64,000 bases of DNA from Haloterrigena turkmenica DSM 5511 (GTDB lineage Archaea > Halobacteriota > Halobacteria > Halobacteriales > Natrialbaceae). How positions within the stretch are numbered: position 1 is the stretch's first letter; every line of letters starts with the position of its first letter. A program made the translations under genes and the position numbers. Location: assembly GCF_000025325.1 (NCBI RefSeq), contig NC_013745.1, positions 248,001 through 312,000 of the forward strand, written 5' to 3'. Positions 1 to 15,657 of the stretch are shown here, piece by piece. Under the pieces are notes generated by a model, which saw only the letters and a program-made list of their open reading frames with translations, was not told the DNA's origin and searched no databases.

Positions 1-653
1 GTACTAACGCCCATCGTTCTGGACGCCTCTACGTAGGAGTTTTCGCGGATCGTCAGCACCTGCGATCGAATGGACCGAGCAAGCCCAGCCCAGTAGTTGA
101 TCGTGATGAGAATGCCGATCACGACGGCGCGCTCCGGCGAGACGACGACCGCCAGCACCATGATGAGCGGGAGGCCGGGAATCGACATCGCGACGTCCGA
201 GAACGTCGTCAGAACGCGGTCGGTCGTCCCCCCCTTGTATCCCGCGACTGTTCCGATCAGAACTGCGAGCCCCGTCGCAAAGACGCCGCCCGACAAGATC
301 ATGACGAGCATCTCGGGTGTCGCGTGGATCGCCATGGCCAGGATGTCCTCACCGGAATTCGTCGTTCCGAGCGGTGCCTCCATCGTCTGGAACGGTTGCA
401 GACTCCGCTCCGACTGGTTCGTGCTCGGCGACCGGTAGAGCCACGTGCCGACGGTGCCGATGAAGACGTATACGGCCAGGATGGATGCACCGAGACGCGT
501 CCGGTTGTCCTCCCACGCGACGAGCCCCGGTTTGTAGACGAACTCCCGGTAGAAGTCTCGCAATCGGTCCGCCGTCGTGACTTCGACGTCGGACTGCGCG
601 GCACCGAACGAGAACTCCTCTTCCGACTCGGTCGTGGATTCAGTATGCTTCAC
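1..653 (-). CDS. ABC transporter permease, DppC/OppC family (3' end cut by window edge)
   Basis: Second inner-membrane permease of a binding-protein-dependent importer. The frame opens at a GTG (651-653) that overlaps the end of the upstream permease gene by 14 bases and stays open to the window edge, giving about 217 residues without a stop. The N-terminus is an acidic cytoplasmic stretch, followed by a hydrophobic segment (ASILAVYVFIG). The end of the visible part (RSQVLTIRENSYVEASRTMG) matches the EAA loop that contacts the ATPase in this family. The ATPase genes should lie left of the window. By position it belongs with the next two genes. Its substrate is inferred from the neighbouring mannan-degrading enzymes to be manno-oligosaccharide rather than peptide; this is not proven. 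Confidence 0.88.
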   Translation of the reverse strand, partial: MKHTESTTESEEEFSFGAAQSDVEVTTADRLRDFYREFVYKPGLVAWEDNRTRLGASILAVYVFIGTVGTWLYRSPSTNQSERSLQPFQTMEAPLGTTNSGEDILAMAIHATPEMLVMILSGGVFATGLAVLIGTVAGYKGGTTDRVLTTFSDVAMSIPGLPLIMVLAVVVSPERAVVIGILITINYWAGLARSIRSQVLTIRENSYVEASRTMGVS

Positions 654-1638
654 TGGAATCACCCGATTTGACACGAGGATCGACGAGTCCGTACGTCAAG
701 TCAGCGATGTAGACCGACAACACGAGCGCGGTCGTAATGACGAGGAAGATTCCCATCATGAGCGGGTAATCCCTGTTGATGAGGGCCTCGAACATGTAGT
801 ATCCGATCCCCGTGTACGTAAAGACCTCCTCGAGGATCACCGATCCGCCAAGGTTGAACCCGATGAGCGTCAGGAACCCGGTATACATTGGCAGAATCGC
901 GTTCCGGCCGACGTATCTAACGGCGATTCGGCGGTCAGAGAGTCCCCGCAGTCGCGCGACCCGGACAAAGTCCTCGCCGAGCACCTGAATACTGTTACCT
1001 CGCATCGCGAGCGTCTGCAGGCCGACCTGCGTGATCACGATCGATGCGATCGGGAGCGCCGCGTGGTACAACACGTTCCCCACGAACTGGAGCGACAGGC
1101 TGGGGGAGACGCCTGGGCTCGTTCGGTACCGCGCGGGGAAGATACCGAACTTGTACGAGAACACGACCACGAACAGGATGCCGAGCACATAGAAGGGAAC
1201 AGACGAGAGCAGAATCGACAAACCGCTCGAGACCGTGTCGAACCTAGACCCTTCCTTGTACGCGATGAGCGCGCCCCAGACGACGGCGATCGCAAACAGG
1301 ACGATAGTCGCCGTCACCATAACGAATACCGTCCACGGGAGCGCATCGGTGATGATACTGGAGACGGGCTCTCTAAAGTAAAACGACTCCCCCAGATTCC
1401 CGGACAGGAGCGACGACATGTACTCGTAGTACTCGACGTAGATCGGTTGGCTCTCCTCCTGTCGGGACTGGATGATGGAGTCGATGCGCGCAGGATCGAC
1501 GCCCTGTCGGACCAATCGCGCCCTGAGCATCTCTAACGGGCCGCCGGGAATCGCCCGTATCAGCCCGAAGGTGAGCGTGACAGTGAACCACAACGTAAGC
1601 ACTGCACGCCCAGTCCGCTTGACATAGTAATTATTCAT
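640..1638 (-). CDS. ABC transporter permease, DppB/OppB family
   Basis: 332-residue membrane permease, normal length for the family. It has an N-terminal membrane segment (VLTLWFTVTLTFGLIRAIPGG, a DppB hallmark), a large external loop, and then about five further membrane segments. The EAA loop (GEDFVRVARLRGLSDRRIAV) lies near residues 220-240. It starts at an ATG preceded by a TATA-like element at about -27, so it can be transcribed separately from the binding-protein gene 69 bases upstream as well as with it. It is translationally coupled by overlap to the DppC-like gene. It forms the membrane channel with that protein. Confidence 0.93.
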   Translation of the reverse strand: MNNYYVKRTGRAVLTLWFTVTLTFGLIRAIPGGPLEMLRARLVRQGVDPARIDSIIQSRQEESQPIYVEYYEYMSSLLSGNLGESFYFREPVSSIITDALPWTVFVMVTATIVLFAIAVVWGALIAYKEGSRFDTVSSGLSILLSSVPFYVLGILFVVVFSYKFGIFPARYRTSPGVSPSLSLQFVGNVLYHAALPIASIVITQVGLQTLAMRGNSIQVLGEDFVRVARLRGLSDRRIAVRYVGRNAILPMYTGFLTLIGFNLGGSVILEEVFTYTGIGYYMFEALINRDYPLMMGIFLVITTALVLSVYIADLTYGLVDPRVKSGDSSEAY

Positions 1639-1659
1639 GGGTAGGACTGCGTAATACTA

Positions 1660-1670
1660 CTAAATAAGGT
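1660..1670 (-). promoter_or_regulatory. TATA box for the permease genes
   Basis: On the minus strand this reads ACCTTATTTA, centred about 27 bases before the permease ATG at 1638. That spacing is expected for a leaderless archaeal promoter. It sits in the 69-base gap after the binding-protein gene, so the permeases may have their own start site. Confidence 0.45.
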
Positions 1671-1707
1671 TTTTGGTTGAATGGTATGCGGTTGCATCGC
1701 AATTCCT

Positions 1708-3471
1708 CTATCCGTCGTATTGCAGTTCTCCCTGACGAATGAGCCAGAGGTTCGGCCACCGAACCTGCGAAACCTCGGCACCCTGTTCGGGAACGGACCA
1801 CTCGTCGGTGGCAAGGAACGCCTGTTCTTGCTTTTCCATGACGGGGATCATGGGAAGGTCCACATTGGTCACCCACGCCTGTTCGATCGAGATCTCGCGG
1901 GTTGTCGCTTCGTCGGAGGTTTCGGACAGTTCCTTGAGGCGATCGCTAGGGTTCACCGTCATCGTTTCTGACCCGGTCCGAGAGGGGACGGTGACGTCGC
2001 CGTTGCTCCCGCCGCGGTTCTCGTTGGCGGGGTCGTAGTTGTACGAGAAGTTGCGGTAGTGCTCGAGGAGCTGGTGGTGAAGCGAGAAGTATGGGAACGA
2101 CGCCCGACCCCCACCGGGAAGCCACCCGCCGGCCGAGAGGACGAAGTCGCCATTCGGCCAGACCGTTCCGTTCAGCGCGCTGAAATTCCGAGAATCGACC
2201 TGAGACTCGAATCCGAAGTCGTTCAGTTGATCGACGATCGTCTGGGTCGCGGTGACCCAGTCGGTCCACCCAGACGGGACGGTGATGGGAAGTTCGACTA
2301 CGTCTCCGCTATTATCGACCCACGTATCGCCGTCCTTCGAGTAGCCGGCGTCACGGAGGATCCGGTTGGCATCGTCGGTCTGTCGTTCGTTCACGCCATA
2401 GTCCTCGAACGAGTCGTAGGCGTCGTCGAGCCACCGTTCCTGGTCGTCCGAGGGAATTCCAGTGAGCAGCGGTGGCGCCTGCTTCAGCGTCTCGCCAACG
2501 TTCTTGACGATGGCCTCTCGGTCTAGCACGTGCGCGATCGCCTGACGAACGGCTCTGTCGCCCGTGTGCTCGTGGTCATGCTGCGGAATCAATCCGTATC
2601 CGACCTTCCCCGGAATGGTCTCCATCTGGATGTGATCGGGGAAGTTATTCACGACGTTCGGCGGGGCGAACACCATCACGGAGTCAAGTTCGTTCGCGCC
2701 GATCGCCTGATGAACGGCTGTGTTCCCGTCGAGGTAGCGGAACGCGACCCGATCAAAGTTGATGTTGCCTGAGTCGGGGTGGTTGTCCCGCTTCTCGAGA
2801 AGAATCTGCTGATTCCCGCGCTCTGAAACAGTGAACGGGCCGTTGGCGATGACATCCTTGTAGGCGTGGCTCTGGATTTCGCTTTGGGCCTGCTCAGCAT
2901 CATCCTCGAACATGTCGACGTACTCCCCGAACTCGCTCTCTTTCAGGGTCATGAACCGCTGTCCCAACGAATTGAATTCGACAATTCGGGGGTTAACGTC
3001 TCCAGCGAGGTTGAGAACGACGGTCTGGTCGTCCGCTACTTCGATATCTTCGGTGAACTGATCGATCGTTCCGCCGGTCAACCTCGCGAGGCGCAGCTGC
3101 GTCGCGACATCACCGGCCGTGACGTCGTCGCCGTCTTCCCAGGTGACGCCGTCGCGAACGGTCATTTCGAACGTCTTGTCGCCGAACTCCCAATCCTGGA
3201 TGAGGTAGGGAGTGAACTCGCCTTTTGCGAAGTTGAAATTCGCAAATCGGTCGAAAAGCAGGTAATGCGAGTACTGAGAGTAACTCGTTGGATTGAGCGG
3301 GTTATACTGAATCTTCGTCGGAACCTGATTCGTATAGCTGACATGGGTGCCGTCCCCGGATCCGGTTCCGCCCGTACAGCCCGCCAGTGCAGCGGCGCCT
3401 GAGGCGCCTGCGCCCTGCAGGAACGCACGGCGATCGATATGACTAACGTAATCACGGTTATTGTCTGTCAT
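1708..3471 (-). CDS. ABC transporter substrate-binding lipoprotein, SBP_bac_5 family
   Basis: 587-residue extracellular solute-binding protein of the DppA/OppA type. The N-terminus has a twin-arginine motif (DRRAFLQG, residues 13-20) followed by a short hydrophobic stretch and a lipobox ending at Cys32 (ALAGC). It is therefore Tat-exported and lipid-anchored, the normal haloarchaeal pattern. The mature part has the usual family features (YNPLNPTSY; VTWEDGDDVTAGDV; residues about 100-125). Most relatives are annotated as peptide binders, but bacterial SBP_bac_5 proteins next to mannanases bind mannobiose or longer manno-oligosaccharides. The genes from 6970 to 15657 make that role likely here. 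It is transcribed with the two permeases. Confidence 0.92.
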   Translation of the reverse strand: MTDNNRDYVSHIDRRAFLQGAGASGAAALAGCTGGTGSGDGTHVSYTNQVPTKIQYNPLNPTSYSQYSHYLLFDRFANFNFAKGEFTPYLIQDWEFGDKTFEMTVRDGVTWEDGDDVTAGDVATQLRLARLTGGTIDQFTEDIEVADDQTVVLNLAGDVNPRIVEFNSLGQRFMTLKESEFGEYVDMFEDDAEQAQSEIQSHAYKDVIANGPFTVSERGNQQILLEKRDNHPDSGNINFDRVAFRYLDGNTAVHQAIGANELDSVMVFAPPNVVNNFPDHIQMETIPGKVGYGLIPQHDHEHTGDRAVRQAIAHVLDREAIVKNVGETLKQAPPLLTGIPSDDQERWLDDAYDSFEDYGVNERQTDDANRILRDAGYSKDGDTWVDNSGDVVELPITVPSGWTDWVTATQTIVDQLNDFGFESQVDSRNFSALNGTVWPNGDFVLSAGGWLPGGGRASFPYFSLHHQLLEHYRNFSYNYDPANENRGGSNGDVTVPSRTGSETMTVNPSDRLKELSETSDEATTREISIEQAWVTNVDLPMIPVMEKQEQAFLATDEWSVPEQGAEVSQVRWPNLWLIRQGELQYDG

Positions 3472-3498
3472 TATCCACTCTGAGGTGGAGTCTCATTA

Positions 3499-3510
3499 GT
3501 AATAAAAGTA
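3499..3510 (-). promoter_or_regulatory. TATA box for the binding-protein gene
   Basis: Minus-strand TACTTTTATTAC lies about 30 bases before the ATG at 3471 and gives a near-leaderless transcript. It is the only good TATA match close to this start. Confidence 0.5.
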
Positions 3511-3511
3511 T

Positions 3512-4074: not shown

Positions 4075-5148
4075 ATGGAGAACATGACGCTGACGGTCGG
4101 TCTGGTCGGGTTAGGGACGCACGGAGCGAATCACGTGAGAATACTCAAAGAACTCGGTCACGATGTCCTCGGGGTAGATGCAGATACGGCGACGAGAGAG
4201 ACGTTTCAGGAACGACACGACGCGACGACGTTCGAGAGTCTCGAGAAGCTGTATGAACAGGATCCGGACGCGGTAATCATCTCAGCGCCGAACAAGTTCC
4301 ACGAGACGGCGGCGATAGACGCACTCGAGGCGGGCCATGACATCCTGCTCGAAAAACCGCTCGCACACGATTTGGAGAGCGCAGAGCGTATCGCCGACGT
4401 AGCGAACCGGACCGGAAACATCTGCATGGTCGGGTACCACCACCGCTATCGGAACATCTGCCAGGTCGCCAAATATTACGTCGAGGACGGCTATCTGGGC
4501 GAAATCACTCACGTTGACGCCCAATTCGTGCGACGGCGTGGCGTTCCCGGTCGAGGGACGTGGTACACGTCGAAGGATATCGCCGGAGGCGGCGCGCTGA
4601 TGGACGTCGGCGCACACCTGCTTGACTTGCTCCTTTTCTGGACTGACTGGCCGACGATCACCGACGCGATGGCGACAGCCCGATCGAACTTTGGCCAGCA
4701 CGATGACTACTCGTACCTCCACATGTGGGGAGAGGACGACCGAGGCAAGATGTATGACGTAGAGGATTCCGTCACGGCATTTTGCGAGTTCGACTCCGGA
4801 ATGACCGCGGACATTCAGGTCGCGTGGGCGGCGAACATGGAATCGTCACACAGCTATCAAATTCAGGGGACGGAAGCGGGCATGACGGTCGATATTACGA
4901 ACACGTTACAGGAAGTCGAGCCGGAGGTTGATCAGCGGAACGATCTCCGGCTGTACGAGGCTCGGTCGGGACGGTGTGACCATTTCGTCGACAGCGAAGT
5001 CATCGTCTCGTTGAACGATCCGTACCGTGACGAGTTGGAGACGTTTCTGGACGCGGTCCGCTCTGGCGAGCGGCCGGAGATGACGAACGTCAAACAGGCG
5101 CTCGACGTGCAGCGTGTCATCGACCGTCTCTACCGGACGAGTCGGTGA
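4075..5148 (+). CDS. Gfo/Idh/MocA family oxidoreductase
   Basis: 357-residue NAD(P)-dependent sugar dehydrogenase. The Rossmann nucleotide loop is GLVGLGTHGANH (residues 9-20). The family EKP signature is at residues 93-95 (LLEKPLAHD). The C-terminal half has the alpha/beta substrate domain (GGGALMDVGAHLLDLLLFW) with the catalytic Asp/His pair of the family. An in-frame ATG at 4084 is an alternative start. Family members oxidise aldoses or inositols, or act as sugar oxidoreductases. In this locus the useful reaction would be D-mannose (or galactose) to the aldonolactone, which would feed UxuA. That assignment is inference from context. It lies directly before the IclR regulator. Confidence 0.9.
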   Translation: MENMTLTVGLVGLGTHGANHVRILKELGHDVLGVDADTATRETFQERHDATTFESLEKLYEQDPDAVIISAPNKFHETAAIDALEAGHDILLEKPLAHDLESAERIADVANRTGNICMVGYHHRYRNICQVAKYYVEDGYLGEITHVDAQFVRRRGVPGRGTWYTSKDIAGGGALMDVGAHLLDLLLFWTDWPTITDAMATARSNFGQHDDYSYLHMWGEDDRGKMYDVEDSVTAFCEFDSGMTADIQVAWAANMESSHSYQIQGTEAGMTVDITNTLQEVEPEVDQRNDLRLYEARSGRCDHFVDSEVIVSLNDPYRDELETFLDAVRSGERPEMTNVKQALDVQRVIDRLYRTSR

Positions 5149-5222
5149 CCTACCGCGTTCGCTACCCGTAGTCGGCTCGGAATCGTCCTCGCCGTACTGG
5201 CTCACGATCGAGAGGTGAGCAT

Positions 5223-5229
5223 GTTTAAC
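5223..5229 (+). promoter_or_regulatory. TATA box for the first IclR gene
   Basis: GTTTAAC centred 28 bases before the ATG at 5254. This spacing supports 5254 as a leaderless start rather than the in-frame GTG at 5215 or ATG at 5221. Confidence 0.45.
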
Positions 5230-5253
5230 TATCCGTGGATCCTAGTAGCAGGT

Positions 5254-6048
5254 ATGCCAGAAGAAGCCTCCGGGGGATACGGGAAAACGATCCAGTCCGT
5301 CGAGTCAGCGCTCGAGGTCGTCGACGTCATCCGCCGGAAGGAGCGGGCGGGCGTCACGGAGATCGCGAACGAACTCGATCGCTCCAAGAGCACGGTCCAT
5401 CACCACGTAGCGACACTGACCAAACACGACTACCTCGACAAAGTTGACGGAGAGTATCAGCTCAGTCTCCGGTTTCTCACGCTCGGCGGCCAGGTGCGCG
5501 AGCGTGAACAGCTCTATCACCTCGGAAAAGACGATGTCGAAAAACTCGCACAGGAAACCGGCGAACAGGCGCGCCTCATCGTTGACCGCAACGGATTCGG
5601 CATTACGCTCTATCAGGCGACTGGAGACCGCGTCACCGAGCCGATAACGCACGTAGGCAGTATCGAGGAACTCTACTGCACCGCGGCCGGTAAAGTGTTT
5701 CTGGCAGAACTATCGGACGCCGAATTAGATTCGTATCTCAGTGAAACTTCCTACACCCCGTACACCGAGGAGACGATCACCGACAGCGACGAGCTCCGAG
5801 AGGAACTCGAAGAAATCCGTGATCGGGGGGTAGCGTTTGATGATGAAGAACGGTACGAGGGGTATCGGTGCGTCGCCGCCGCTATCAGCACCGAGGCGAG
5901 AGAACCGTTCGGAGCGCTCAGCGTCTCCGCGCCGGTCGAGCGAATGGGCGAAGAGCGGTTCCGCACTGATGTGCCGAATCAGCTCCAGAACGTCGCCGGC
6001 GTCGTCGAGATTAATACCACGTATTCGGAGTGGACGGACATACTCTAA
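5254..6048 (+). CDS. IclR family transcriptional regulator (mannan locus)
   Basis: 264 residues. The N-terminal winged helix-turn-helix (about residues 8-70) includes SVESALEVVDVIRR and the recognition region IANELDRSKSTVHHHVATL. The C-terminal IclR effector domain follows (about 85-260), with LYCTAAGKVFLAEL and GVAFDDEERYEGYRCVAAAI typical of the family. The start was chosen by a TATA box 28 bases upstream and by homologous N-terminal length. IclR proteins of haloarchaea commonly control sugar catabolic operons, and this one is placed between the dehydrogenase and hydrolase genes. It is the obvious candidate regulator of the locus; the effector is unknown. Confidence 0.93.
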   Translation: MPEEASGGYGKTIQSVESALEVVDVIRRKERAGVTEIANELDRSKSTVHHHVATLTKHDYLDKVDGEYQLSLRFLTLGGQVREREQLYHLGKDDVEKLAQETGEQARLIVDRNGFGITLYQATGDRVTEPITHVGSIEELYCTAAGKVFLAELSDAELDSYLSETSYTPYTEETITDSDELREELEEIRDRGVAFDDEERYEGYRCVAAAISTEAREPFGALSVSAPVERMGEERFRTDVPNQLQNVAGVVEINTTYSEWTDIL

Positions 6049-6337: not shown

Positions 6338-6345
6338 TTGTATAG
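6338..6345 (+). promoter_or_regulatory. TATA box for the UspA gene
   Basis: TTGTATAG centred about 24 bases before the ATG at 6365. It decides that ATG over the upstream in-frame start at 6338, which lies inside the element itself. Confidence 0.45.
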
Positions 6346-6364
6346 TCAGTTCGTTGGCCTCCCC

Positions 6365-6823
6365 ATGCGACGTGGATTAGTACTCGCCGAAGACACTGAG
6401 AAAGGCCGAAAACTACTCGCCGAAGCAGCCGCGACCGCTCGCGGTAGCGATTGCGGGCTGATCGTCCTGTCCATTATCCACCCGGAATCGTTCGCAGCGA
6501 ACGTCGAGACGCTGGAAGCGATGGGAGACGTCGAAGATACACACTACGACGAGCATAGCGTCCTCGACGCCGAGCGAAACGCCGTTCAGTCCGTAGTCAA
6601 TGACGCTATTGACGGCGACAACATAGAGATCACATACCGTGTGAGCGTCGCTTCAGACAGTGAATATGTCGAGACAGTCCTTCAGACTGCCCAGGAGACT
6701 GATTGCGATCATCTGTTCACGTGTGGCACTCAACGCACCCCGACCGGAAAAGCAATCTTCGGTGATCGGACACAGCAACTCCTCTTGGAGTTCTCCGGAC
6801 CCGTGACGGTGGATCTCGACTGA
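6365..6823 (+). CDS. Universal stress protein (UspA family)
   Basis: 152 residues, a single Usp domain with a Rossmann-like fold. The start at 6365 gives the expected first beta strand (MRRGLVLAEDTEKG). The C-terminal nucleotide-binding signature is TCGTQRTPTGKAIFGDRTQQ, the G-2x-G-9x-G(S/T)-like pattern of ATP-binding Usp proteins. The last strand is GPVTVDL. Its role in stress or energy signalling is not resolvable. It is a monocistronic unit between the regulator and the beta-mannosidase genes. Confidence 0.88.
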   Translation: MRRGLVLAEDTEKGRKLLAEAAATARGSDCGLIVLSIIHPESFAANVETLEAMGDVEDTHYDEHSVLDAERNAVQSVVNDAIDGDNIEITYRVSVASDSEYVETVLQTAQETDCDHLFTCGTQRTPTGKAIFGDRTQQLLLEFSGPVTVDLD

Positions 6824-6969: not shown

Positions 6970-9507
6970 ATGCGGATAGAGTCGCTCAACGGTAGCTGGA
7001 AGTTACGTCAGTCGGATACCGATCGCTGGTTAGATGCGTCGGTTCCCGGCGGAGTCTATACGGACCTCCTCAACGCAGGTGAAATCCCCGATCCGTACGA
7101 CGACGACAACGAACTCGACCTCCAGTGGGTCGGGACGTCCGACTGGGTGTATCGACACACCGTGACGCTCGACGATGACTTTCTCGACGAGGAACGCGTA
7201 CGCTTGCGCTGTGCCGGCCTTGACACTATCGCGACGGTACGCATCAACGGCACGGTCGTGGGCGAAGCCGCTAACATGCACCGCAAGTACGAGTTCGACG
7301 TCGGTGATGCCCTCACTCCCGGGGAGAACCAGGTCGAAATCACGTTCCACTCTCCGGTCGAGTATAGCGTTCGTCACTCAGAGAATCACGGGTATCAGGT
7401 TCCAACACTTCGATATCCGGTCGATCAGCCGGGACGGAACTTTATCCGGAAAGCCCAGTGCCATTACGGGTGGGACTGGGGGCCGTGTCTTCCGACCTCG
7501 GGAATCTGGCGAGACATCGACCTCCTCGCCTACTCTGAACCGCGGATCGAGTACACGAAGACTGTACAGGACCACGACGGCAACAGCGTCAGCCTCGACG
7601 TGACCGTTGGCCTCGACGCACCGGCCGACGGTGACGTATTGCTCGCTGCCGAGGTCGCAAATACGGCGACACATAAAGTCGTAGATGTCGTCGAGGGGCA
7701 CAATGAGGTTACGATCACCCTCGACGTTTCAGATCCCGATCTCTGGTGGCCTAATGGGTACGGCGACCAACCGCTTTACGACCTCATCATAGCCGTCGAC
7801 ACGAAACCCGAGTCGGTTGCGGACGACACGGACGCGGTGACAGCCGACGGCGGCGTGACGACGGCCGCCTCGTCGCTCCTGCCCGACCCGGCTCACGAGA
7901 CGTCCACTCGCATCGGGTTCCGAGAGCTCGAACTCGTCCGCGAACCGGACGGGGAGGGCGACGGCGAGTCGTTCACGTTCGAGGTCAATGGGGTATCGGT
8001 GTTCGCGAAGGGTGCCAACTGGATCCCGGCGGACGCGCTGTACGGACGGATCACGCGCGATCGATACGAATCGCTGCTCGACAGCGCGATCGAGGCCAAC
8101 ATGAACATGATTCGTGTCTGGGGCGGCGGTTACTACGAGCGAGACGGGTTCTACGAGGCGTGCGACGAGCGGGGACTGCTCGTCTGGCAGGACTTCATGT
8201 TCGCCTGCGCACTGTACCCGAGCGACGACGATTATCTGGCGTCCGTCGAGGAGGAGGTCCGGTACCAAGTTCGCCGGCTCGCCGACCACCCGTCGATCGC
8301 GCTCTGGTGTGGAAATAACGAAGTCGAAATGGGCCTTGAAAGCTGGTTCGATGACGCCGACGAACTGGAACAGTTGAAGGAGGACTACGAGACGCTGTTC
8401 TACGACGTGATCGGCGATACCGTTGCTGAAGAGGACGAGACACGGACGTACTGGCCCGGATCACCATCCAGTGGCACCGGGAGGCAAGACCCCTACCCGG
8501 CGAACAAGGGCGACATCCACTACTGGGACGTCTGGCATGACGGCGCGGACTTCGAGGAGTACGAGACGGTCGAACCGCGATTCGTCTCCGAGTTCGGATA
8601 CCAGTCATTCCCCTCGGTCGACGCCCTCTCGTCGGTGCTCCCCGACAACGAACTCAACCCGACCGCGCCGCTGATGGAACACCATCAGCGACACGAGGAG
8701 GGAAATCGGACGATCCTCCAGCGGATGGCGGCGTTGTTCCGCATCCCGTTTAGCTTCGCAGACTTCGTCTATCTCAGTCAAGTGCAGCAAGGACTGGCGA
8801 TGAAGGTCGCCATCGAACACTGGCGGCGGCTGAAACCCGATTGCATGGGGACGCTCTACTGGCAGTTGAACGATCTCTGGCCCTGCGCGTCGTGGTCATC
8901 TATCGAGTACGGCGGCGACTGGAAGGCGCTCCAGCACGTCAGCCGCCGTATCTACGCACCGGTCCTGCTCTCGACGACGATGACGGACGACGGCGACGAG
9001 GTCGAAATCTGGCTCACGAACGACGAACGCGACCACCTGAAAGGGAATGTCGCTGTCGAAGCATACACTTTCGACGGGGAACGCATCGACGGGACCGACG
9101 AGCGCGTCTCGGTCGCGGCGCTCGACAGCGCCCGCGTCGCGACCGTCAACGCGGATCGATTACTCGGCGACATCCCACGGGAGGAGGCATTCCTCCGCGT
9201 CACTTTCGACGGGAGCGACGAGACGTATCCGGCGTTCACGTTCTTCGAGGAGTACAAGCACCTCGAACTCCCGGAGCCGAACTTCGACGTCGCTGTCGAC
9301 AGGAACGAGGTGACGATTAAGGCGGACGCCGCCGCCCTGTTCGTCGAACTGAACGTCCCGCTCGACGGCCAGTTCTCGGACAACTACTTCCACCTGACGC
9401 CTGGCGAAGAGCAAAGGGTCGCGTTCAACGCCGCGGACCCACCCGACGATCTCGAACGGCGACTCACTGAGGAACTGTCGCTGAACCACCTCCGTGCAAC
9501 CTACTGA
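6970..9507 (+). CDS. Beta-mannosidase, glycoside hydrolase family 2
   Basis: 845 residues with no signal peptide, so cytoplasmic. It releases mannose from the non-reducing end of beta-1,4-manno-oligosaccharides. The N-terminal sugar-binding jelly roll starts LNGSWKLRQ, with the family mark HYGWDWGP near residue 165. An immunoglobulin-like domain and the TIM barrel follow. The acid/base Glu451 is in GNNEVEMG and the nucleophile Glu541 in SEFGYQSFPS. The segment GTLYWQLNDLWPCASWSSI is diagnostic of beta-mannosidases within GH2. A TATA-like CATTATTA lies about 30 bases upstream. It follows import by the ABC transporter. An exo-glucosaminidase is a less likely alternative. Confidence 0.95.
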   Translation: MRIESLNGSWKLRQSDTDRWLDASVPGGVYTDLLNAGEIPDPYDDDNELDLQWVGTSDWVYRHTVTLDDDFLDEERVRLRCAGLDTIATVRINGTVVGEAANMHRKYEFDVGDALTPGENQVEITFHSPVEYSVRHSENHGYQVPTLRYPVDQPGRNFIRKAQCHYGWDWGPCLPTSGIWRDIDLLAYSEPRIEYTKTVQDHDGNSVSLDVTVGLDAPADGDVLLAAEVANTATHKVVDVVEGHNEVTITLDVSDPDLWWPNGYGDQPLYDLIIAVDTKPESVADDTDAVTADGGVTTAASSLLPDPAHETSTRIGFRELELVREPDGEGDGESFTFEVNGVSVFAKGANWIPADALYGRITRDRYESLLDSAIEANMNMIRVWGGGYYERDGFYEACDERGLLVWQDFMFACALYPSDDDYLASVEEEVRYQVRRLADHPSIALWCGNNEVEMGLESWFDDADELEQLKEDYETLFYDVIGDTVAEEDETRTYWPGSPSSGTGRQDPYPANKGDIHYWDVWHDGADFEEYETVEPRFVSEFGYQSFPSVDALSSVLPDNELNPTAPLMEHHQRHEEGNRTILQRMAALFRIPFSFADFVYLSQVQQGLAMKVAIEHWRRLKPDCMGTLYWQLNDLWPCASWSSIEYGGDWKALQHVSRRIYAPVLLSTTMTDDGDEVEIWLTNDERDHLKGNVAVEAYTFDGERIDGTDERVSVAALDSARVATVNADRLLGDIPREEAFLRVTFDGSDETYPAFTFFEEYKHLELPEPNFDVAVDRNEVTIKADAAALFVELNVPLDGQFSDNYFHLTPGEEQRVAFNAADPPDDLERRLTEELSLNHLRATY

Positions 9508-9630
9508 CGACGGGCGCCGCGTGAAACTGAGAACGCTGTCCGTGACCGAGCACGAGCGCGCTACTCCGGGAACCACCGACCGTCGCGCCGCGTCCGTAGC
9601 GAGAGTGACCGCGAAGTCGACGCCGGCGTC

Positions 9631-10656
9631 TCACTCGGTCGCGTCGAGCAGGCCGCGAATGTACCCGCTGGCGAACAGCTTTCCGGAGAGGTGATACCCG
9701 GGGGTCGAGTTGTCCTCGCCGGCCATCGTCGGGACGTGGTCCGGGCGAATCGGACCGTCAAAGCCGACGTCTCGATACGCCTGAATCGCGCCAGCCATGT
9801 CGGTCGGTCCGTCATCGTGCCACGTCTCGACAAAGCCGTCGGCACCACCCTCGACGTCGCGGATATGGACGAAGTTGATCCGATCGCCGAACCGCTGAAT
9901 CGTCGCCGGGACGTCGACGCCCATCGCCGCGAAGTTGCCCTGGCAGAACGTGATGCCGTTGTACGGCGAGTCGACGACGTCGAGTGTGCGCTCGTAGGCC
10001 TCGGGCGAGTTGATGATCCGCGGCATTCCACGGAGGTCCCCAATCGGCGGATCGTCGGGGTGTAGTCCGAGTTTGACGCCCGCCTCCTCGGCGACCGGAA
10101 CGACGCGTTCGAGGAAGTACTCCAGGTTCGCCCAGAGGTCGTCCGCCGTCGTTGAGCGGGCCGCGGCAGGCGCAGGCCCGCGGCGCATCTGCTCATCACT
10201 GTAGGAAGTGGTGAGCGAGTCGCCCCGACTCGGCGTCGTGACCGAGGTCCGGGCCCACCGGAGCCCCGCCATCCAGTCGTAACAGACGACATCGACGCCG
10301 AGTTTCCCGAGATTCCGAAGGAACCGACAAAACTCGTCAATCTCGTCGTCCCGGCCGTCCATCGCGAGGCGCGTGGTGTCGGTCAGCGGGACGCTCCCCT
10401 CGAACACGGCGGGTTCGAGCCCGTGATCGCGGTACCGGTTGACGACACGGAGCAGTTCGTCGTACTGCGATGGACGCCGCCCGTCGCCGAGTTCGAGCGA
10501 GTGATACACGGCGTGGTTGATGCCGATCTGCTTTGCCTTGTCCCACCGTTCGTCGGGTTCCGGCGGGAGAACGAGCGAAAGTTGCATGCGAGTGCTCTGT
10601 ACGAACAGATTCGCCCGAACGCTTAGTTCTTGTCCTGTCGTTGTGTCCGATGGCAT
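9631..10656 (-). CDS. uxuA: D-mannonate dehydratase
   Basis: 341 residues. It converts D-mannonate to 2-keto-3-deoxy-D-gluconate with a divalent metal. The TIM-barrel motifs of UxuA are in order: GVKLGLHPDDPP, the metal-binding Cys in GITFCQGNF, the His in NFVHIRDV, and WHDDGPTDM with RPDHVPTM near the C-terminus. An alternative start at 10587 (MQLSLVLPP) would fit the usual N-terminus. The upstream ATG was kept because a TATA box lies about 29 bases before it. Bacterial UxuA serves glucuronate breakdown, but no uronate isomerase or mannonate oxidoreductase is near. Its place between beta-mannosidase and mannanase genes suggests it handles mannonate made by direct oxidation of mannose. Confidence 0.93.
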   Translation of the reverse strand: MPSDTTTGQELSVRANLFVQSTRMQLSLVLPPEPDERWDKAKQIGINHAVYHSLELGDGRRPSQYDELLRVVNRYRDHGLEPAVFEGSVPLTDTTRLAMDGRDDEIDEFCRFLRNLGKLGVDVVCYDWMAGLRWARTSVTTPSRGDSLTTSYSDEQMRRGPAPAAARSTTADDLWANLEYFLERVVPVAEEAGVKLGLHPDDPPIGDLRGMPRIINSPEAYERTLDVVDSPYNGITFCQGNFAAMGVDVPATIQRFGDRINFVHIRDVEGGADGFVETWHDDGPTDMAGAIQAYRDVGFDGPIRPDHVPTMAGEDNSTPGYHLSGKLFASGYIRGLLDATE

Positions 10657-10677
10657 CTGTACCGTTAGTTCCCCTTC

Positions 10678-10690: not shown

Positions 10691-10722
10691 ACATATGTCG
10701 GTGAATCCGAAACGCACTATCT

Positions 10723-11943
10723 ATGGTACGAAGACGCACGATTCTCTGCAGCGGCGGTGCGGTCGCCAGCGGACTCACTCTCCCCGGGTTCGCGGCACCG
10801 GCGTCCGACGAAGCGTCGAACCGACCGGACGGCTTCCTCGCGACCGACAGAACGTCGTTTTCGGTGGACGGCGAGTCGCAGTACCTCGCTGGAACGAACA
10901 ACTTCTGGCTTGCAGACGTCTGGACGACCAGAGACGAGGTCGACACCATGCTCGACCGGGCGACTGATCTGGGGCTCAACACCGTCCGAACGTGGGCATT
11001 CTGCGCCGGACGCAACGGCCACTGCTTCCAGCCGTCCGAAGGCGAGTACGACGAGTCCGCCTTCGAGCATCTCGATTACGTGATCGAGGCTGCAGCGGAC
11101 CGGGGGCTCCGTCTAATCCTCCCACTCGCGAACAACTGGGGAGCGTACGGCGGCATGGAACAGTACGTCGAATGGTCCGAGACGGCCGAGAAGCACGACG
11201 ACTTCTACACCGACCTCGAGACGCGGCAGCTGTACCGCGACTTCGTCGAAACGGTCGTGACGCGAACGAATTCCATCTCCGGAGTCCCGTACGCTGAAGA
11301 TACGACCATCGCGATGTGGGAACTCGGAAACGAGCCGCGCGCCCAGACGAAGGGCGTCGACGTACTCGGAGACTGGATCGAGGAGATGTCGGGGTTCATC
11401 AAGCGCCTCGATCCGAACCACCTCGTGTCGACCGGTATGGAAGGGTTCTACGACGGCGACGGCGACGACTGGCTCCGCGATGGCTCTCAGGGAACCGCAT
11501 ACGTGGACCACCACCGAATCGACACCGTCGACGCGTGCTCGTTCCACCTCTACCCCGACCACTGGGGCGTCAACCCCGAGTACGGTACCGAATGGATCGA
11601 GGACCATGTCAGAGACGGCCACGAACGGGTCGGGAAGCCCGTCTACCTGGGTGAGTTCGGCATCCAGGTGGATCGGAACGCGAGCGACGCGCGACAGCAG
11701 ATCATCCGTCGGAACAGCATTTACGACACCTGGTATGATAGACTCGACGAACTGGACGCCGACGGGGGCGTCGTCTGGCAGCTCACTCTGAAAAAGCGGG
11801 CCCCGTACGACGATGGCTTCTACGTGTTCCCCGGAGACGACCGCACGATACGACGGATAGAACGGTTCGCGAACCGGATGGATGCCGAATCCGGTCGTCC
11901 GCTCCACGCGGACTGGAAGCGACGCCGCGCAAGACGCAATTGA
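10723..11943 (+). CDS. Secreted endo-beta-1,4-mannanase, GH5 (GH5_7-like)
   Basis: 406 residues. The N-terminal signal has an arginine cluster (MVRRRTIL) and a hydrophobic run to about residue 28, consistent with Tat export without lipidation. The catalytic barrel shows LGLNTVRTWAF, the subfamily-7-like LANNWGAYGGMEQYV, acid/base Glu204 in WELGNEPR and nucleophile Glu311 in YLGEFGIQ. These are marks of plant/fungal/bacterial GH5_7 mannanases, which cut internal bonds of mannan and galactomannan. There is no carbohydrate-binding module. It is divergent from uxuA with a shared promoter region. Confidence 0.93.
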   Translation: MVRRRTILCSGGAVASGLTLPGFAAPASDEASNRPDGFLATDRTSFSVDGESQYLAGTNNFWLADVWTTRDEVDTMLDRATDLGLNTVRTWAFCAGRNGHCFQPSEGEYDESAFEHLDYVIEAAADRGLRLILPLANNWGAYGGMEQYVEWSETAEKHDDFYTDLETRQLYRDFVETVVTRTNSISGVPYAEDTTIAMWELGNEPRAQTKGVDVLGDWIEEMSGFIKRLDPNHLVSTGMEGFYDGDGDDWLRDGSQGTAYVDHHRIDTVDACSFHLYPDHWGVNPEYGTEWIEDHVRDGHERVGKPVYLGEFGIQVDRNASDARQQIIRRNSIYDTWYDRLDELDADGGVVWQLTLKKRAPYDDGFYVFPGDDRTIRRIERFANRMDAESGRPLHADWKRRRARRN

Positions 11944-12070
11944 CGGCGTGATCAGAGCGGCGGAGACTAAACATCCTCAGCCGGTCCGCAACCGCTTTCG
12001 AAATAGTTGATTTAACTCAATCATAATGTTTAATAGAGATGTTATTGAATCACCTATTGGAGTTAGAAAG

Positions 12071-13402
12071 ATGTACAACCGACGTGAAGTACTTAAGTCC
12101 ACTGCGATTGGGACGACGATCGGTTTAGGTGTACTGGCGAGCAGCACAACGACGACTGCGGCGGGCGCATCGTTCGGTGACGGCGTCAATCTCCAACCCG
12201 CGTACTACTGCGGTGGCGACCAGAACCTGGGGTGGGACCTGATGAACGACCATCCTGATATCGAGACCGTCCGTATCGAGATCGAACCGCCGAGTGGCGG
12301 CGAGACGAGTGCGGACTTGGCCGATATCCGGCGCTGGATCGACGAGGCGAACGCTAACGGGTATCAGGTCATCGCGACCTATCACCACTGGCCGAACAAC
12401 GGTTCCGGAGACCCACAGGACCTGCAGGACGCCGCGGACTGGTGGGTGCAAAACTACGACTATCTCTCGCAGAACTCCTCGTTTGTGATCAACCTCCACA
12501 ACGAGTGGGGGACCCACGACGTATCGGCGCAGGAGTACGGCAACGCCTACGACAGCGCGCTCAGCAGACTGCGTGATAGCGCCTACGACGGGACGGTGAT
12601 CTGCGACGTGCCCGGGTACGGGCAGGAGCCCCAGATCGCTGCCGACAGCGTCGATTACATCAGCGACGACGACATCGCGTTCTCTGTGCACGTGTACGCG
12701 AAGGCGTGGAACCAGTACGCCGGGGAGCCGCTACAGATGTCGCACCTCGATTACCTTGATACGAACCAGCCCCATCCATGCCTGATCGGCGAATTCGGCC
12801 CGCTCGGCCCGGACGATCGGACGGACTGGTCCGCCGTCGTCGACCACGCTAAGTCGCTGGGCTGGCCAGTGCTCGGGTGGGCCTGGAACGGCGACGGCGA
12901 GTCCGACCCCATGAACATGACCGCCCCGTTCTGGGGCGACGACTGCGGTGCGACGTCCTACTCGAAAACCTCGTACTTCAGCACCGTGTACGACAAGCTG
13001 GGCGGCGGAAGCTCCGGCGGCGGCGGTGGAGAGACGACGGCTCACTACCTGAACGCCGAGTACTACTCGCTCAACAGCGTCTCGACGTCAACGAGCCGAT
13101 CGGGGTATTGGGGCGACGCGTACGTCACTGGCTTCGACAGCTCGGGCGACTCCGTCACAATGGACTTCGACGCGGCGGCGAGCGGGCAACGGACTGTCAA
13201 GATCCGATACGCCGCGCCACACGACGACAAAGAGTGTAACCTGTACATCAACGGGCAGTCCGTCGGGCAGGCATCGCTCCCATACACGACCTCGTTCCAG
13301 CAGACGACCGCGGGGAGCTATCAGTTCGACGCGGGCTACAACGAGATCACAATAGAGAACGGCTGGGGCTACTATGATATCGATGCGGTAGTCGTTGAGT
13401 GA
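12071..13402 (+). CDS. Secreted GH5 hydrolase with C-terminal CBM35-like module (probable mannanase)
   Basis: 443 residues from the ATG at 12071, chosen because it places a Tat motif at the N-terminus (NRREVLKS). A longer frame from 12026 is possible. The GH5 catalytic domain is about residues 40-315, with acid/base Glu145 in LHNEWG and nucleophile Glu241 in LIGEFGP. A glycine/serine linker (GGGSSGGGGGE) follows. The last about 115 residues form a beta-sandwich ending ENGWGYYDIDAVVVE, closely resembling mannan-binding CBM35 modules. It is distinct in sequence from the neighbouring GH5 protein. The product is an extracellular glycanase held on its polymer, most likely mannan by context. Other beta-glucan substrates cannot be excluded. 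Confidence 0.88.
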   Translation: MYNRREVLKSTAIGTTIGLGVLASSTTTTAAGASFGDGVNLQPAYYCGGDQNLGWDLMNDHPDIETVRIEIEPPSGGETSADLADIRRWIDEANANGYQVIATYHHWPNNGSGDPQDLQDAADWWVQNYDYLSQNSSFVINLHNEWGTHDVSAQEYGNAYDSALSRLRDSAYDGTVICDVPGYGQEPQIAADSVDYISDDDIAFSVHVYAKAWNQYAGEPLQMSHLDYLDTNQPHPCLIGEFGPLGPDDRTDWSAVVDHAKSLGWPVLGWAWNGDGESDPMNMTAPFWGDDCGATSYSKTSYFSTVYDKLGGGSSGGGGGETTAHYLNAEYYSLNSVSTSTSRSGYWGDAYVTGFDSSGDSVTMDFDAAASGQRTVKIRYAAPHDDKECNLYINGQSVGQASLPYTTSFQQTTAGSYQFDAGYNEITIENGWGYYDIDAVVVE

Positions 13403-13900
13403 GAACTGGCCTGAGACCACCTGTACGGACCGACGAAATATCGTGTGACGCTGGACGGAAGACCTAATGGGCATCGCCGTTCGTTCATGACGGTATTCAG
13501 AGGTGGGAAAGGAGGTAAGACGTAACGGCTTCAACGTGTTCCGGGCCCGAAACCACACTCTTTCGTCCCAGTATTGGCTACTTCGATCCGAGCTTCTCGA
13601 GAGATTCGGTGTCGAACGGGCTCGATCGATCGTTCGTAGCTGAGTACACGAAACCGAGCGACGGCCCGATACCAAAAACGGCCACAGACGACGCTGAGCC
13701 CACAAGGATTACCATCATTGCGCGGTTATTTTTCCGGGACTGCTCAAGGTGGCCGCGGCTCTCCTTCGCGACCAAAATGGGAAATACTATCGTACGAACG
13801 CTGATCTGCGTGTCTCTGACCGGCGGAAGGTACACATCGACATGTCCTCTCATAACACATTGCACAAGGCTTAAGTGAATGGTTGTGATTGGGAATCATA
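13403..13900. other. Intergenic stretch between GH5 and GH27 genes
   Basis: About 500 bases. A minus-strand frame (13578-13865) with one hydrophobic segment exists, but it lacks a recognisable promoter, start context or family. No gene is called. Confidence 0.4.
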
Positions 13901-13921
13901 TGAGTGTGTTACAGACACTCA
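13901..13921. promoter_or_regulatory. Inverted repeat TGAGTGT-N7-ACACTCA at the GH27 promoter
   Basis: Perfect 7-base arms (13901-13907 and 13915-13921) end 17 bases before the ATG at 13939. They overlap the AT-rich element (CAAATAGAG) that would serve as TATA box. The position suits an operator that blocks transcription. The binding protein is unknown; the IclR protein at 5254 is the local candidate. Confidence 0.45.
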
Positions 13922-13938
13922 AATAGAGAGATGAAATC

Positions 13939-15657
13939 ATGAACGAAAGAAATGAATATGAACCCGAAGGTGCAGCGGAGAGAGTAGACGACGATGATTC
14001 GATTACACCACCAATAACGCGACGGTCCGCGATGAAAGTGGCAGCGGCGACGGGAGCCAGTAGTCTCCTCGCGAACTCGACGGTTACCGCCGACGACAAC
14101 AGCGACCGGAGCGAGAGTGCAGACAAGACATTGGTGGAATCCCCACCGATGGGATGGAACAGCTGGAACACGTTCTACTGTGACATCGACGAGGAATTGA
14201 TCAAGGACGCCGCCGATGCAATGGCCGAAAGCGGGATGAAAGAAGCGGGCTACGAGTACGTCTGTATCGACGATTGCTGGATGGCACCCGAACGCGACGC
14301 GAACGGGAAACTCCAACCAGATCCCGAGACGTTTCCGAACGGCATCAGTGCTCTCGCCGATTATGTTCACGACAAAGGCCTCAAACTGGGTATCTACGAA
14401 TCAGCGGGGACGACGACGTGTCAGGGCCTTCCCGGCAGCCTCGGTTACGAAGAAACCGATGCACAGACGTTCGCTGACTGGGGAGTTGACTTCCTCAAAT
14501 ACGATAACTGCGGGGACCATTACGGCCTATCGGCGGTTGAGCGCTATACGCGAATGCACAACGCGCTCGAAGCCGTTGATCGGGATATTATTTTCAGCAT
14601 CTGTGAATGGGGAGATAACGATCCGTGGATGTGGGCCCCAGAGGTAGGCGGCGACCTCTGGCGGACAACTGGCGATATTAAACCCCTCTGGAGGGCCCAA
14701 GAGGATCTGTGGGGGAACGGCATTATCGACATCATCGATCAGAATGAGCCCCTCGCCGAATACGCCGGTCCCGGTCGCTGGAATGATCCGGACATGCTCG
14801 TGGTCGGCGTGGACCTGCCGGAGTATCCAAACCTAACCGAAGCGGAAGACCGAACGCACTTCGGCATGTGGGCGATGATGGCCGCGCCGCTCATGGCTGG
14901 TAACGACATTCGCAATATGTCCGACGAGACTCGCGATATTCTCACTAACGACGAGGTGATCGCGATCGATCAGGATCCGGCGGGCAATCAGGCGACGCGG
15001 ATTCAACACATCAGGGGTGAGGACGGTCTCTCACGTTCAGTCTGGGCGAAAACACTCGCGAATGGGGATCGAGCAGTCGGGTTACTGAATCGTAGCGATA
15101 GGAGAACGACAGTTACGACCAGTGCTCAGGCGGTCGGACTTGAAGCTGCCTCTTGCTACGTTGCTCGCGATCTCTGGAACGGAACCGACTGGCAGACCGC
15201 CGGTCTTATTAGTGCATCGGTTCCGTCACATGGGCTTGCATTATTCCGGGTCAGTAGTGGTAACCCGGACGGTACCAACCCATTCGCAACGGTTTCACTC
15301 GGCGATACTGAAGCGACAGTCGCACCGGGTGAGGCAGTCACTCGATCGCTGACATTCACTAATTATTCGCCAATGGCAATCGATAGCGTTCACGTCACCT
15401 GTGATTCGCCCGATGGCTGGGAATCCGAGCCCACCTCAACGACGTTTACCGATATCGCGGCCGGACCAGCGATTTCGGGTGCATCTGGTCCGCAAAACGA
15501 CGCCGCAACTGACTGGATGATACGCCCCCCAAGAGATGCACCGTCCAAAGACTACGAACTTAGCGTAACCGCAGAATACGCAGATGGAGTCTCTATTGCA
15601 GAGCCATTTACCGTAACTGTCGAGAATAACACTGGCCATGACTCTGATCCTGACTGA
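13939..15657 (+). CDS. Secreted alpha-galactosidase, GH27, with C-terminal NEW3-like domain
   Basis: 572 residues. A Tat motif (TRRSAMKVA, about residues 29-37) lies behind an acidic extension. The GH27 barrel begins PPMGWNSWNTF. The nucleophile is Asp189 in LKYDNCG and the acid/base Asp285 in RWNDPDMLVVG, as in human and plant alpha-galactosidases. A beta-sandwich follows the barrel, and the last about 115 residues are an immunoglobulin-like NEW3 domain (VTRSLTFTNYS). It removes alpha-1,6-galactose side groups from galactomannan and so helps the two GH5 enzymes. Its codon use is less GC-extreme than in the neighbours. Confidence 0.94.
   Translation: MNERNEYEPEGAAERVDDDDSITPPITRRSAMKVAAATGASSLLANSTVTADDNSDRSESADKTLVESPPMGWNSWNTFYCDIDEELIKDAADAMAESGMKEAGYEYVCIDDCWMAPERDANGKLQPDPETFPNGISALADYVHDKGLKLGIYESAGTTTCQGLPGSLGYEETDAQTFADWGVDFLKYDNCGDHYGLSAVERYTRMHNALEAVDRDIIFSICEWGDNDPWMWAPEVGGDLWRTTGDIKPLWRAQEDLWGNGIIDIIDQNEPLAEYAGPGRWNDPDMLVVGVDLPEYPNLTEAEDRTHFGMWAMMAAPLMAGNDIRNMSDETRDILTNDEVIAIDQDPAGNQATRIQHIRGEDGLSRSVWAKTLANGDRAVGLLNRSDRRTTVTTSAQAVGLEAASCYVARDLWNGTDWQTAGLISASVPSHGLALFRVSSGNPDGTNPFATVSLGDTEATVAPGEAVTRSLTFTNYSPMAIDSVHVTCDSPDGWESEPTSTTFTDIAAGPAISGASGPQNDAATDWMIRPPRDAPSKDYELSVTAEYADGVSIAEPFTVTVENNTGHDSDPD

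Follow-up and report, generated by a model that had tools for sequence, protein, structure and literature searches.

UxuA is a hexuronate enzyme, and in the hexuronate pathway UxaC-UxuB-UxuA its family yields 2-keto-3-deoxygluconate (KDG). A mannonate dehydratase was suggested for mannose in 2011 (PMC3102087), and the available text of a 2024 paper on Natronoglomus mannanivorans (PMC10963439) predicts a route from mannose through mannonate and KDG into the semi-phosphorylative Entner-Doudoroff (ED) pathway, citing AldT of Thermoplasma as an enzyme that oxidises free mannose to mannonate. An oxidative mannose route is thus not new, contrary to a sequence-only reading of the DNA studied here, which had held that no haloarchaeal pathway of this form was described. 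Two bacterial operons are also close to parts of the locus, as far as the available text of each paper goes. The AtOGE operon of A. tumefaciens contains an oxidoreductase, a TIM-barrel eliminase and a Gfo-type reductase; GlycDH, a flavoenzyme, carries out the first oxidation there, and the putative hydratase is another TIM protein (PMC10628242). The lgdA-B1-B2-C operon of Bacillus smithii contains two dehydrogenases (LgdC belonging to the Gfo/Idh/MocA family), two sugar phosphate isomerase-like proteins, a sugar-type ABC importer and a regulator, and acts on another substrate (PMC7676230).

The locus described here belongs to a replicon of 413,648 bases in Haloterrigena turkmenica, and was analysed in a stretch of 64,000 nucleotides, referred to as the window (Table 1). 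The genes and positions named in the sequence-only reading were borne out, each gene matching its named family in Pfam, and their grouping is non-random: the same order recurs in H. salifodinae, whose table lacks the first GH5, and the core order is shared by genomes G191 and G242, no GH27 being found in the stretch from G242. The universal stress protein gene between the IclR and GH2 genes is also kept in close relatives. The ABC importer is present as claimed but is incomplete in the window, with OppC across the edge and two ATPases to the left. Similarly, the claim that no isomerase is nearby holds inside the window but depends on where its edge falls, because a cellobiose-2-epimerase-like gene lies approximately 6 kb to the left.

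Table 1. Genes of the mannan locus and its surroundings (window positions unless prefixed L009).
Feature	Position	Strand	Family match or remark
Classical SDR	L009:5466-6284		Closest to glucose 1-dehydrogenase 1rwb, 170.1 bits
Cellobiose-2-epimerase-like gene, AGE family	L009:11014-12273 (window-relative -6986 to -5727)		Left of importer
Two oligopeptide-type ATPases	L009:15506-17622		After OppC, left of window
OppC-type ABC permease	3..674	-	PF00528; cut by window edge, end within L009 17622-18400
OppB-type ABC permease	640-1638	-	PF00528/PF19300
Family 5 solute-binding protein, twin-arginine N-terminus	1708-3471	-	PF00496 (SBP_bac_5)
Gfo/Idh/MocA dehydrogenase, DH4075	4075-5148	+	Pfam; nearest solved relatives DgpA C3-dehydrogenases
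IclR-family regulator	5215-6048	+	Pfam
Universal stress protein family	6338..6823	+	PF00582
GH2 beta-mannosidase, mannosidase Ig domains	6970-9507	+	PF22666, PF17753, PF17786
UxuA-family mannonate dehydratase, clade M	9631-10656	-	PF03786, NF003027, tree
First GH5 mannanase, Tat-type secreted	10723-11943	+	PF00150
Second GH5 mannanase with CBM35, Tat-type secreted	12026-13402	+	PF00150, PF16990
GH27 alpha-galactosidase with NEW3 domain, Tat-type secreted	13939-15657	+	PF16499, PF17801, PF10633

Twin-arginine N-termini are visible in the solute-binding protein, both GH5 enzymes and the GH27 enzyme; the Pfam TAT model matches the solute-binding protein alone, under its cut-off. No signal peptide was seen on inspection of the GH2 N-terminus. 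The nearest PDB entries are mannanases 8gf3, 3pz9 and 1rh9 for the first GH5, and 2whj, 1wky and 1bqc for the catalytic part of the second; we take the two to be GH5_7-like and GH5_8-like, respectively. At the level of sequence, interpretation of this region as a galactomannan utilisation locus is supported. The mannanases and GH27 enzyme would cut galactomannan outside the cell, manno-oligosaccharides would enter via the Opp-type ABC system, and mannose would be released by the GH2 beta-mannosidase.

According to the available text, the beta-mannan cluster of Natronoglomus AArc-m2/3/4 has GH5_7, GH5_8, a GH2 beta-mannosidase, IclR, a mannonate dehydratase and a GH109-like (Gfo/Idh/MocA) dehydrogenase in common with H. 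turkmenica (PMC10963439), and the cluster in genome G344 contains an orthologue of DH4075 (65% identical). The differences are that Natronoglomus also has GH26 and an additional UxuA, and that an extended SDR stands next to its clade-M UxuA; this SDR is probably the gene given as 'UDP-glucose 4-epimerase' in that paper. In turn H. turkmenica has GH27, the AGE gene, and a second Gfo/Idh/MocA protein (DH2) and a TIM-barrel protein (TIM243) in the locus, whereas G344 has no AGE match at E<=1e-40 and the word 'galactosidase' is absent from the main text of PMC10963439.

The sequence-only reading had mannose oxidised to mannonate by DH4075 and dehydrated by UxuA. The UxuA half is plausible, while the dehydrogenase half is doubtful. 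UxuA exceeds the cut-offs of PF03786 (251.5 vs 23.7 bits) and of the NF003027 mannonate dehydratase model (217.8 vs 191), and is below that of the TIGR00695 equivalog (150.2 vs 199.55). Residues H199, C238, H264 and D306, the metal ligands (His of HPDD, Cys, His of FVH and Asp of RPD), are present in 77/77 alignment rows and align with 1tz9 and 3ban. The gene is intact and under purifying selection (dN/dS 0.134 and 0.072 in two comparisons), being conserved as strongly as its neighbours, which rules out a dying relic in H. turkmenica. It has decayed in two Natrialba species (dN/dS 0.32 for the longest open piece), and the loci of G144, G184 and G341 lack it. From mannonate UxuA would form KDG, which would enter the semi-phosphorylative ED route, whose tail is intact in the genome, the copies of KDG kinase and KDPG aldolase beside the mannan locus being fragments. 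The intact KDG kinase homologue is a 332-residue PfkB gene (L011:17229-18227). Its identity is 94% with the G191 PfkB gene and 83% with the fragment recognised by the haloarchaeal KDG kinase model; KDPG aldolase has two full-length family matches (C1:2713196 and C2:167796).

It could be proposed that this UxuA serves glucuronate rather than mannose, as the genome does contain a glucuronate isomerase (UxaC). However, that isomerase gene is carried by a different replicon, where a separate UxuA paralogue and a GH2 are close by, and in a survey of 58 distinct loci of 60, which were hand-picked from the matches listed and weighted to the best scores, UxaC was near UxuA at 0/15 clade-M loci vs 10/44 rows elsewhere (Fisher P=0.052), the rows being related species and one locus (L116) being counted in two groups. 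We therefore regard a role in glucuronate use as highly improbable. (Dropped before counting were L098, an unplaced long branch, and L112, the same locus as L069; the tree is without three fragments of <280 residues.) In the same survey an extended SDR was near UxuA in 9/15 clade-M loci vs 4/44 rows elsewhere (P=0.0002). A lactonase sometimes stands beside UxuA in other haloarchaea, but such genes are no marker of a mannose route because they are also near UxuA outside clade M (2/15 and 5/23 rows). Overall we lean towards UxuA acting on mannonate derived from mannan.

The identity of DH4075 is a separate matter. Among solved structures its best match is DgpA (118.9 bits), followed by 6a3f (71.0; entitled 'putative dehydrogenase' in the database, and which we take to be levoglucosan dehydrogenase), with the C1-type relatives aldose-aldose oxidoreductase (57.8) and GFOR (56.8) below DgpA. 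Among profiles, UDP-GlcNAc 3-dehydrogenase (118.1 bits) ranks above the haloarchaeal xylose 1-dehydrogenase Gfo6 (NF041392; 58.5 vs a cut-off of 350), and the protein is under the cut-off of every curated NCBIfam model listed, the C3 profiles included. C1- and C3-dehydrogenases both occur in the Gfo/Idh/MocA family, so these scores do not prove the position oxidised; on balance, DH4075 is more likely a glycoside or sugar C3-dehydrogenase than a C1-dehydrogenase. AlphaFold models were set aside (mean pLDDT 52.5 for DH4075 from a 10-row alignment, and 33.3 for the SDR from a single sequence).

The company that DH4075 keeps also argues against a mannose 1-dehydrogenase. TIM243 has AtOGE (8BVK) as its best solved relative (89.4 bits), and all five metal and catalytic residues of AtOGE (His132, His134, Asp163, His189 and Glu233) are kept in it as H126, H128, D156, H182 and E221 and are invariant in 22/22 family members, although its dN/dS is the highest among ten genes (0.39 vs G191 and 0.17 vs G242). 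In the 14 genomes whose loci contain DH4075 at >=60% identity we found IclR in 14, GH2 in 13, TIM243 in 12, an importer gene in 11 (including G105, where the match is a partial solute-binding protein at 30%), DH2 in 9 and an intact UxuA in only 6. At 50-59% identity, 4/6 loci examined (from 12 listed) had the module without GH2 or UxuA. Judging from these matches, the conserved unit consists of a pair of Gfo/Idh/MocA dehydrogenases and a TIM-barrel protein resembling AtOGE. This composition differs from that of the AtOGE operon in that H. turkmenica combines two Gfo/Idh/MocA proteins with a single TIM protein, and does so in the mannan locus of an archaeon, and from the lgd operon, as the importer here is of Opp type. 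In H. turkmenica no equivalent was identified of the additional TIM protein that those two operons have for hydration. Among the matches listed in a search of mostly open-access literature, no paper described a 3-keto-glycoside module in archaea.

Oxidation of free mannose at C1 by DH4075, giving mannonolactone or mannonate for UxuA entirely within the window, is nevertheless favoured by the presence of both genes in the locus, both under purifying selection, and by the lack of a close copy of the UxuA-adjacent extended SDR in H. turkmenica, G191 and G242. With UxuA kept and no close copy of this SDR found, DH4075 is the sole dehydrogenase in the window locus that could supply mannonate, and the same overall route is predicted for the Natronoglomus cluster, with its DH4075 orthologue (PMC10963439). 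Against this, it is with the eliminase-like protein, DH2 and the importer that DH4075 co-occurs rather than with UxuA, and the first two accompany it also at loci in which UxuA is missing or broken. In G184, DH4075 is found without any match to UxuA at E<=1e-20, and four genomes with the SDR (G271, G344, G104 and G105) have DH4075 as well. The nearest solved relatives of DH4075, moreover, are C3-dehydrogenases. We thus consider C1 oxidation by DH4075 decidedly unlikely. More likely, DH4075 would work with DH2 and TIM243 in a sequence of C3 oxidation, beta-elimination at the glycosidic bond, hydration and reduction. Elimination destroys the C2 centre, so by chemical inference a mannoside would yield the same 2-hydroxy-3-keto-glucal as a glucoside, and after hydration and reduction mannose units would become glucose without kinase, isomerase or mannonate. 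That imported manno-oligosaccharides are in fact broken in this way in addition to GH2 cleavage, with reduction by DH2, in parallel to UxuA, seems very unlikely.

Mannonate might instead come from another dehydrogenase: the classical SDR to the left of the window is one candidate, a main glucose dehydrogenase of the genome another. The SDR has a glucose 1-dehydrogenase as its closest solved match and exceeds the NF005559 (PRK07231) cut-off (238.3 vs 215), but it adjoins a galactonate dehydratase and has a GH4 and a further importer in its vicinity, which suggests that it serves galactose. AldT is likewise a classical SDR; it was not identified in the H. turkmenica locus, and the SDR here lists glucose 1-dehydrogenases first. 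A route of this kind was proposed for Natronoglomus (available text of PMC10963439), and for H. turkmenica we consider it possible, if on the unlikely side.

Alternatively, the AGE protein may be the main handler, converting reducing-end or free mannose to glucose for the ordinary oxidative route and leaving UxuA a secondary role. Its best NCBIfam match is cellobiose 2-epimerase (NF041848, 199.0 bits, short of the cut-off of 800), and it also matches 8h1k, which we take to be the Runella mannose 2-epimerase. The gene is rare (22/391 genomes) and yet occurs in 8/14 genomes with DH4075 at >=60% vs 14/377 others, and it is kept in the two Natrialba species with decayed UxuA and in G144, G184 and G341. 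Within those 14 genomes AGE is present in 8 and an in-locus extended SDR (>=73%) in 4, with both in none (hypergeometric P 0.015, ignoring kinship and leaving out SDRs of 55-56% in G184 and G341). A strict either/or is weakened by G161 (DH4075 at 59%), which has both, and by operons with a different AGE subfamily, UxuA and SDR. The scores under NCBIfam cut-offs and the conservation of UxuA in H. turkmenica weigh against AGE as the main handler, as does the lack of any GH130 match in the genome, which rules out a mannosylglucose phosphorylase partner; we consider this role unlikely. Elsewhere, the gene nearest to D-mannose isomerase is on C2 and is below that model's cut-off, and PMI_typeI_C has no match in the genome, a model that also misses the haloarchaeal control.

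In our judgement the chances are about even that this locus is a variant form of a type of mannan locus already known, in which UxuA acts downstream and a 3-keto-glycoside module lies alongside; the cellobiose-2-epimerase-like protein, encoded next to that module, may additionally turn the reducing-end mannose of manno-oligosaccharides into glucose. If true, the dehydrogenase missing from the predicted archaeal mannose pathway would, in other species, probably be the SDR beside UxuA, which, if that identification is right, the available text of the Natronoglomus study annotates as a UDP-glucose epimerase (PMC10963439). DH4075 would then be assigned instead to a module for 3-keto-glycosides within a polysaccharide locus of a haloarchaeon.

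Oxidation of mannose to mannonate, which the sequence-only reading of this locus took to be an undescribed route, had already been predicted in print for Natronoglomus (PMC10963439, 2024). According to the published cluster description, the mannan cluster of that genus comprises GH5_7, GH5_8, GH26 and GH2 genes, a GH109-like dehydrogenase, an IclR regulator and two mannonate dehydratases, and mannose is predicted to pass via mannonate and 2-keto-3-deoxygluconate (KDG) into the semi-phosphorylative Entner-Doudoroff route; the strain is reported to grow on mannan but not on mannose (PMC10963439). A mannose role for mannonate dehydratase was suggested as early as 2011, in a passage of PMC3102087. 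The pathway is plausible in Haloterrigena turkmenica, though published before.

Every member of the gene set proposed from sequence alone matched its family in Pfam. Among solved structures the first GH5 enzyme is closest to mannanases (8gf3, 246 bits; 3pz9; 1rh9), as is the catalytic part of the second (2whj, 1wky, 1bqc), which also carries a CBM35; we take them to belong to GH5_7 and GH5_8, respectively. Mannosidase Ig domains are present in the GH2 protein. UxuA scores 217.8 on the NCBIfam subfamily model for mannonate dehydratase, above its cut-off of 191, but falls short of the TIGR equivalog model; its residues H199, C238, H264 and D306 are invariant in 77/77 aligned rows and align with 1tz9 and 3ban. 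The genome consists of 7 contigs totalling 5,440,782 bases, among them C1 (3,889,038), C2 (698,495) and C3 (413,648 bases), which holds the window (C3:248001-312000) and is presumably pHTUR02. The genome report for strain 4kT gives 5,440,782 bp, made up of a 3,889,038 bp chromosome and six plasmids, the largest of 698.5 kb (PMC3035258). G+C content is 57–63% in the locus, mostly lower than in the window past 28 kb (59–68%, one block 55%). A type 2 isopentenyl-diphosphate isomerase match at window 17101-18015 lacks the first 51 profile positions; either the start is miscalled or the gene is truncated.

The first step of the pathway had been assigned to DH4075, the Gfo/Idh/MocA dehydrogenase at window 4075-5148(+). 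Homology and gene company speak against its being the mannonate-forming enzyme, and this assignment is probably wrong. Its best solved relatives are DgpA glycoside C3-dehydrogenases, at 118.9 and 106.2 bits, with aldose-aldose oxidoreductase at 57.8 bits and GFOR at 56.8 bits; DgpA is described as oxidising puerarin to 3''-oxo-puerarin. The importer genes are split by the window edge, with OppC and then two oligopeptide-type ATPases to the left, followed by the genes tabulated below.

Genes of the left flank (stretch L009 = C3:230001-248400; subtract 18000 from an L009 position for the window-relative position)
Feature	L009 position	Placement
TIM243, 243-residue AP_endonuc_2 TIM-barrel protein	14380-15111	left of the two ATPases
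DH2, second Gfo/Idh/MocA protein	12434-13558	left of TIM243
AGE-family protein	11014-12273	left of DH2

The best solved relative of TIM243 is AtOGE (8BVK), the A. tumefaciens O-glycoside beta-eliminase, which is described as catalysing Mn-dependent elimination on 3-keto-O-beta-glucosides and as splitting 3'-keto-cellobiose too; 5/5 of its metal and catalytic residues are retained. PMC10628242 compares the A. tumefaciens, PUE and levoglucosan operons, and the DH4075-TIM243-DH2 set is similar to these. DH4075 occurs at ≥60% identity in 14/391 class genomes, and in the stretches examined these loci contain IclR (14/14), GH2 (13/14), TIM243 (12/14), an importer gene (11/14, G105 being counted on a partial 30% match), DH2 (9/14) and intact UxuA (6/14). 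The Natronoglomus orthologue (65% identity) adjoins IclR, GH2 and UxuA. In both Natrialba species UxuA is frameshifted and has lost its end (L012:15505-16522, L013:15642-16407), while the DH4075, DH2, TIM243, GH2, CBM35-type GH5 and importer genes align nearly full length; genome G184 carries DH4075, yet nothing in it matches UxuA at E≤1e-20. Of the 12 matches listed with DH4075 at 50–59% identity, six loci were examined, and four of these (L152-L154, L157) have DH2, TIM243 and importer genes but neither GH2 nor UxuA. The module is thus kept where UxuA is broken or absent, which places DH4075 with TIM243, DH2 and the importer. Counting against a glycoside-C3 module, DH4075 reaches no curated C3 profile at its cut-off, no hydratase partner was identified, and the dN/dS of TIM243 is the highest among ten genes against both G191 and G242. 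The putative 3-keto-glycoside module is the new element here, and lies beyond the window apart from DH4075.

The same order is found on Haloterrigena salifodinae pHTS138 (AGE, DH2, esterase, TIM243, importer, DH4075, IclR, stress protein, GH2, mannonate dehydratase, CBM35 protein, alpha-galactosidase), where the gene table of the locus has no counterpart of the first GH5. The GDSL esterase, intact there (L165:4879-5916), survives in H. turkmenica only as pieces with a gap mid-gene between DH2 and TIM243 (L009:13567-14196, window-relative -4433 to -3804). A HEAT-repeat protein recurs next to the Opp-type importer in relatives (L158:6137-7039, L160:17107-18063, L062:13584-14558); no gene is called at that position in H. 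turkmenica.

Four UxuA-family genes are present in H. turkmenica. One paralogue lies near a GH2 and the sole glucuronate isomerase of the genome, a second is close to GH115, and a third is grouped with genes for aldehyde dehydrogenase and DHDPS. A tree built from 74 UxuA rows places the window copy within an 18-row clade (clade M, support 96/80). In a neighbourhood survey of 60 fetched UxuA loci, glucuronate isomerase was near UxuA at 0/15 clade-M loci and in 5/15, 5/23 and 0/6 rows of three other groups, while an extended SDR (≥45% identity) lay within 300 bases of UxuA at 9/15 clade-M loci and in 3/15, 1/23 and 0/6 rows, respectively; no row of the survey had both. A gluconolactonase-type gene was present at 4/15 clade-M loci and also elsewhere (2/15 and 5/23 rows). 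Among 15 named plasmid records that match the SDR, five were inspected, and the UxuA-SDR pair is present in 5/5. Halobacterium noricense has consecutive AGE-family, mannonate dehydratase and SDR genes (L166:3745-7948), with a lactonase gene next and then a regulator and importer; its AGE-family protein is closest to the D-mannose isomerase model (197.4 bits, below the cut-off of 600) and shares 68–78% identity with its counterparts in Natrinema versiforme and N. salinisoli. Mannose is therefore probably what the UxuA-SDR set acts on. D-mannose-isomerase-like, UxuA and SDR genes are consecutive in N. versiforme (L164:3838-6957) and N. salinisoli (L169:3729-6888). The SDR itself resembles solved extended SDRs only distantly, whether uronate dehydrogenase or NDP-sugar epimerases. 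The 'UDP-glucose 4-epimerase' of the published Natronoglomus cluster probably corresponds to this UxuA-linked SDR (L069, UxuA 8790-9932), which would make it a candidate mannose dehydrogenase.

No close SDR copy was found in H. turkmenica (best match E=6.2e-35, against E=1e-106 and better for orthologues beside UxuA) or in G191, and G242 does not figure among the genomes matched at E≤1e-25. The window UxuA is nevertheless under purifying selection (dN/dS 0.134 against G191 and 0.072 against G242, within its neighbours' range), so mannonate is probably made in H. turkmenica by an enzyme other than a close SDR copy. One gluconolactonase-family gene lies on the same replicon, ~190 kb from the locus.

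The cellobiose-2-epimerase-like AGE gene occurs in 22/391 genomes: 8/14 with DH4075 at ≥60% versus 14/377 others (Fisher P=6e-8, kinship ignored). Its protein is closest to 8h1k (215.8 bits), presumably the group of the Runella mannose 2-epimerase, then to cellobiose 2-epimerases (205.1 bits and lower), and could convert reducing-end mannose to glucose. A second AGE-family gene on C2 (L171:8913-10139) adjoins an aldo/keto reductase and is closest to D-mannose isomerase (190.4 bits, below the cut-off of 600). In the H. turkmenica genome there is one ROK match and none to GH130 or to PMI_typeI_C, the latter a weak absence as the model misses the haloarchaeal control as well.

Left of the AGE gene are KDG kinase and KDPG aldolase fragments (L009:9668-10660); their counterparts are intact neighbours in G191 (L159), and H. 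turkmenica has intact copies of both elsewhere. Further left are GH32, a glucose-1-dehydrogenase-like SDR, galactonate dehydratase, another importer and GH4. The stretch L009:1-6284, with GH4, the sugar importer, galactonate dehydratase and the glucose-1-dehydrogenase-like SDR, looks like an oxidative galactose set, and this putative set could serve the galactose freed by GH27.
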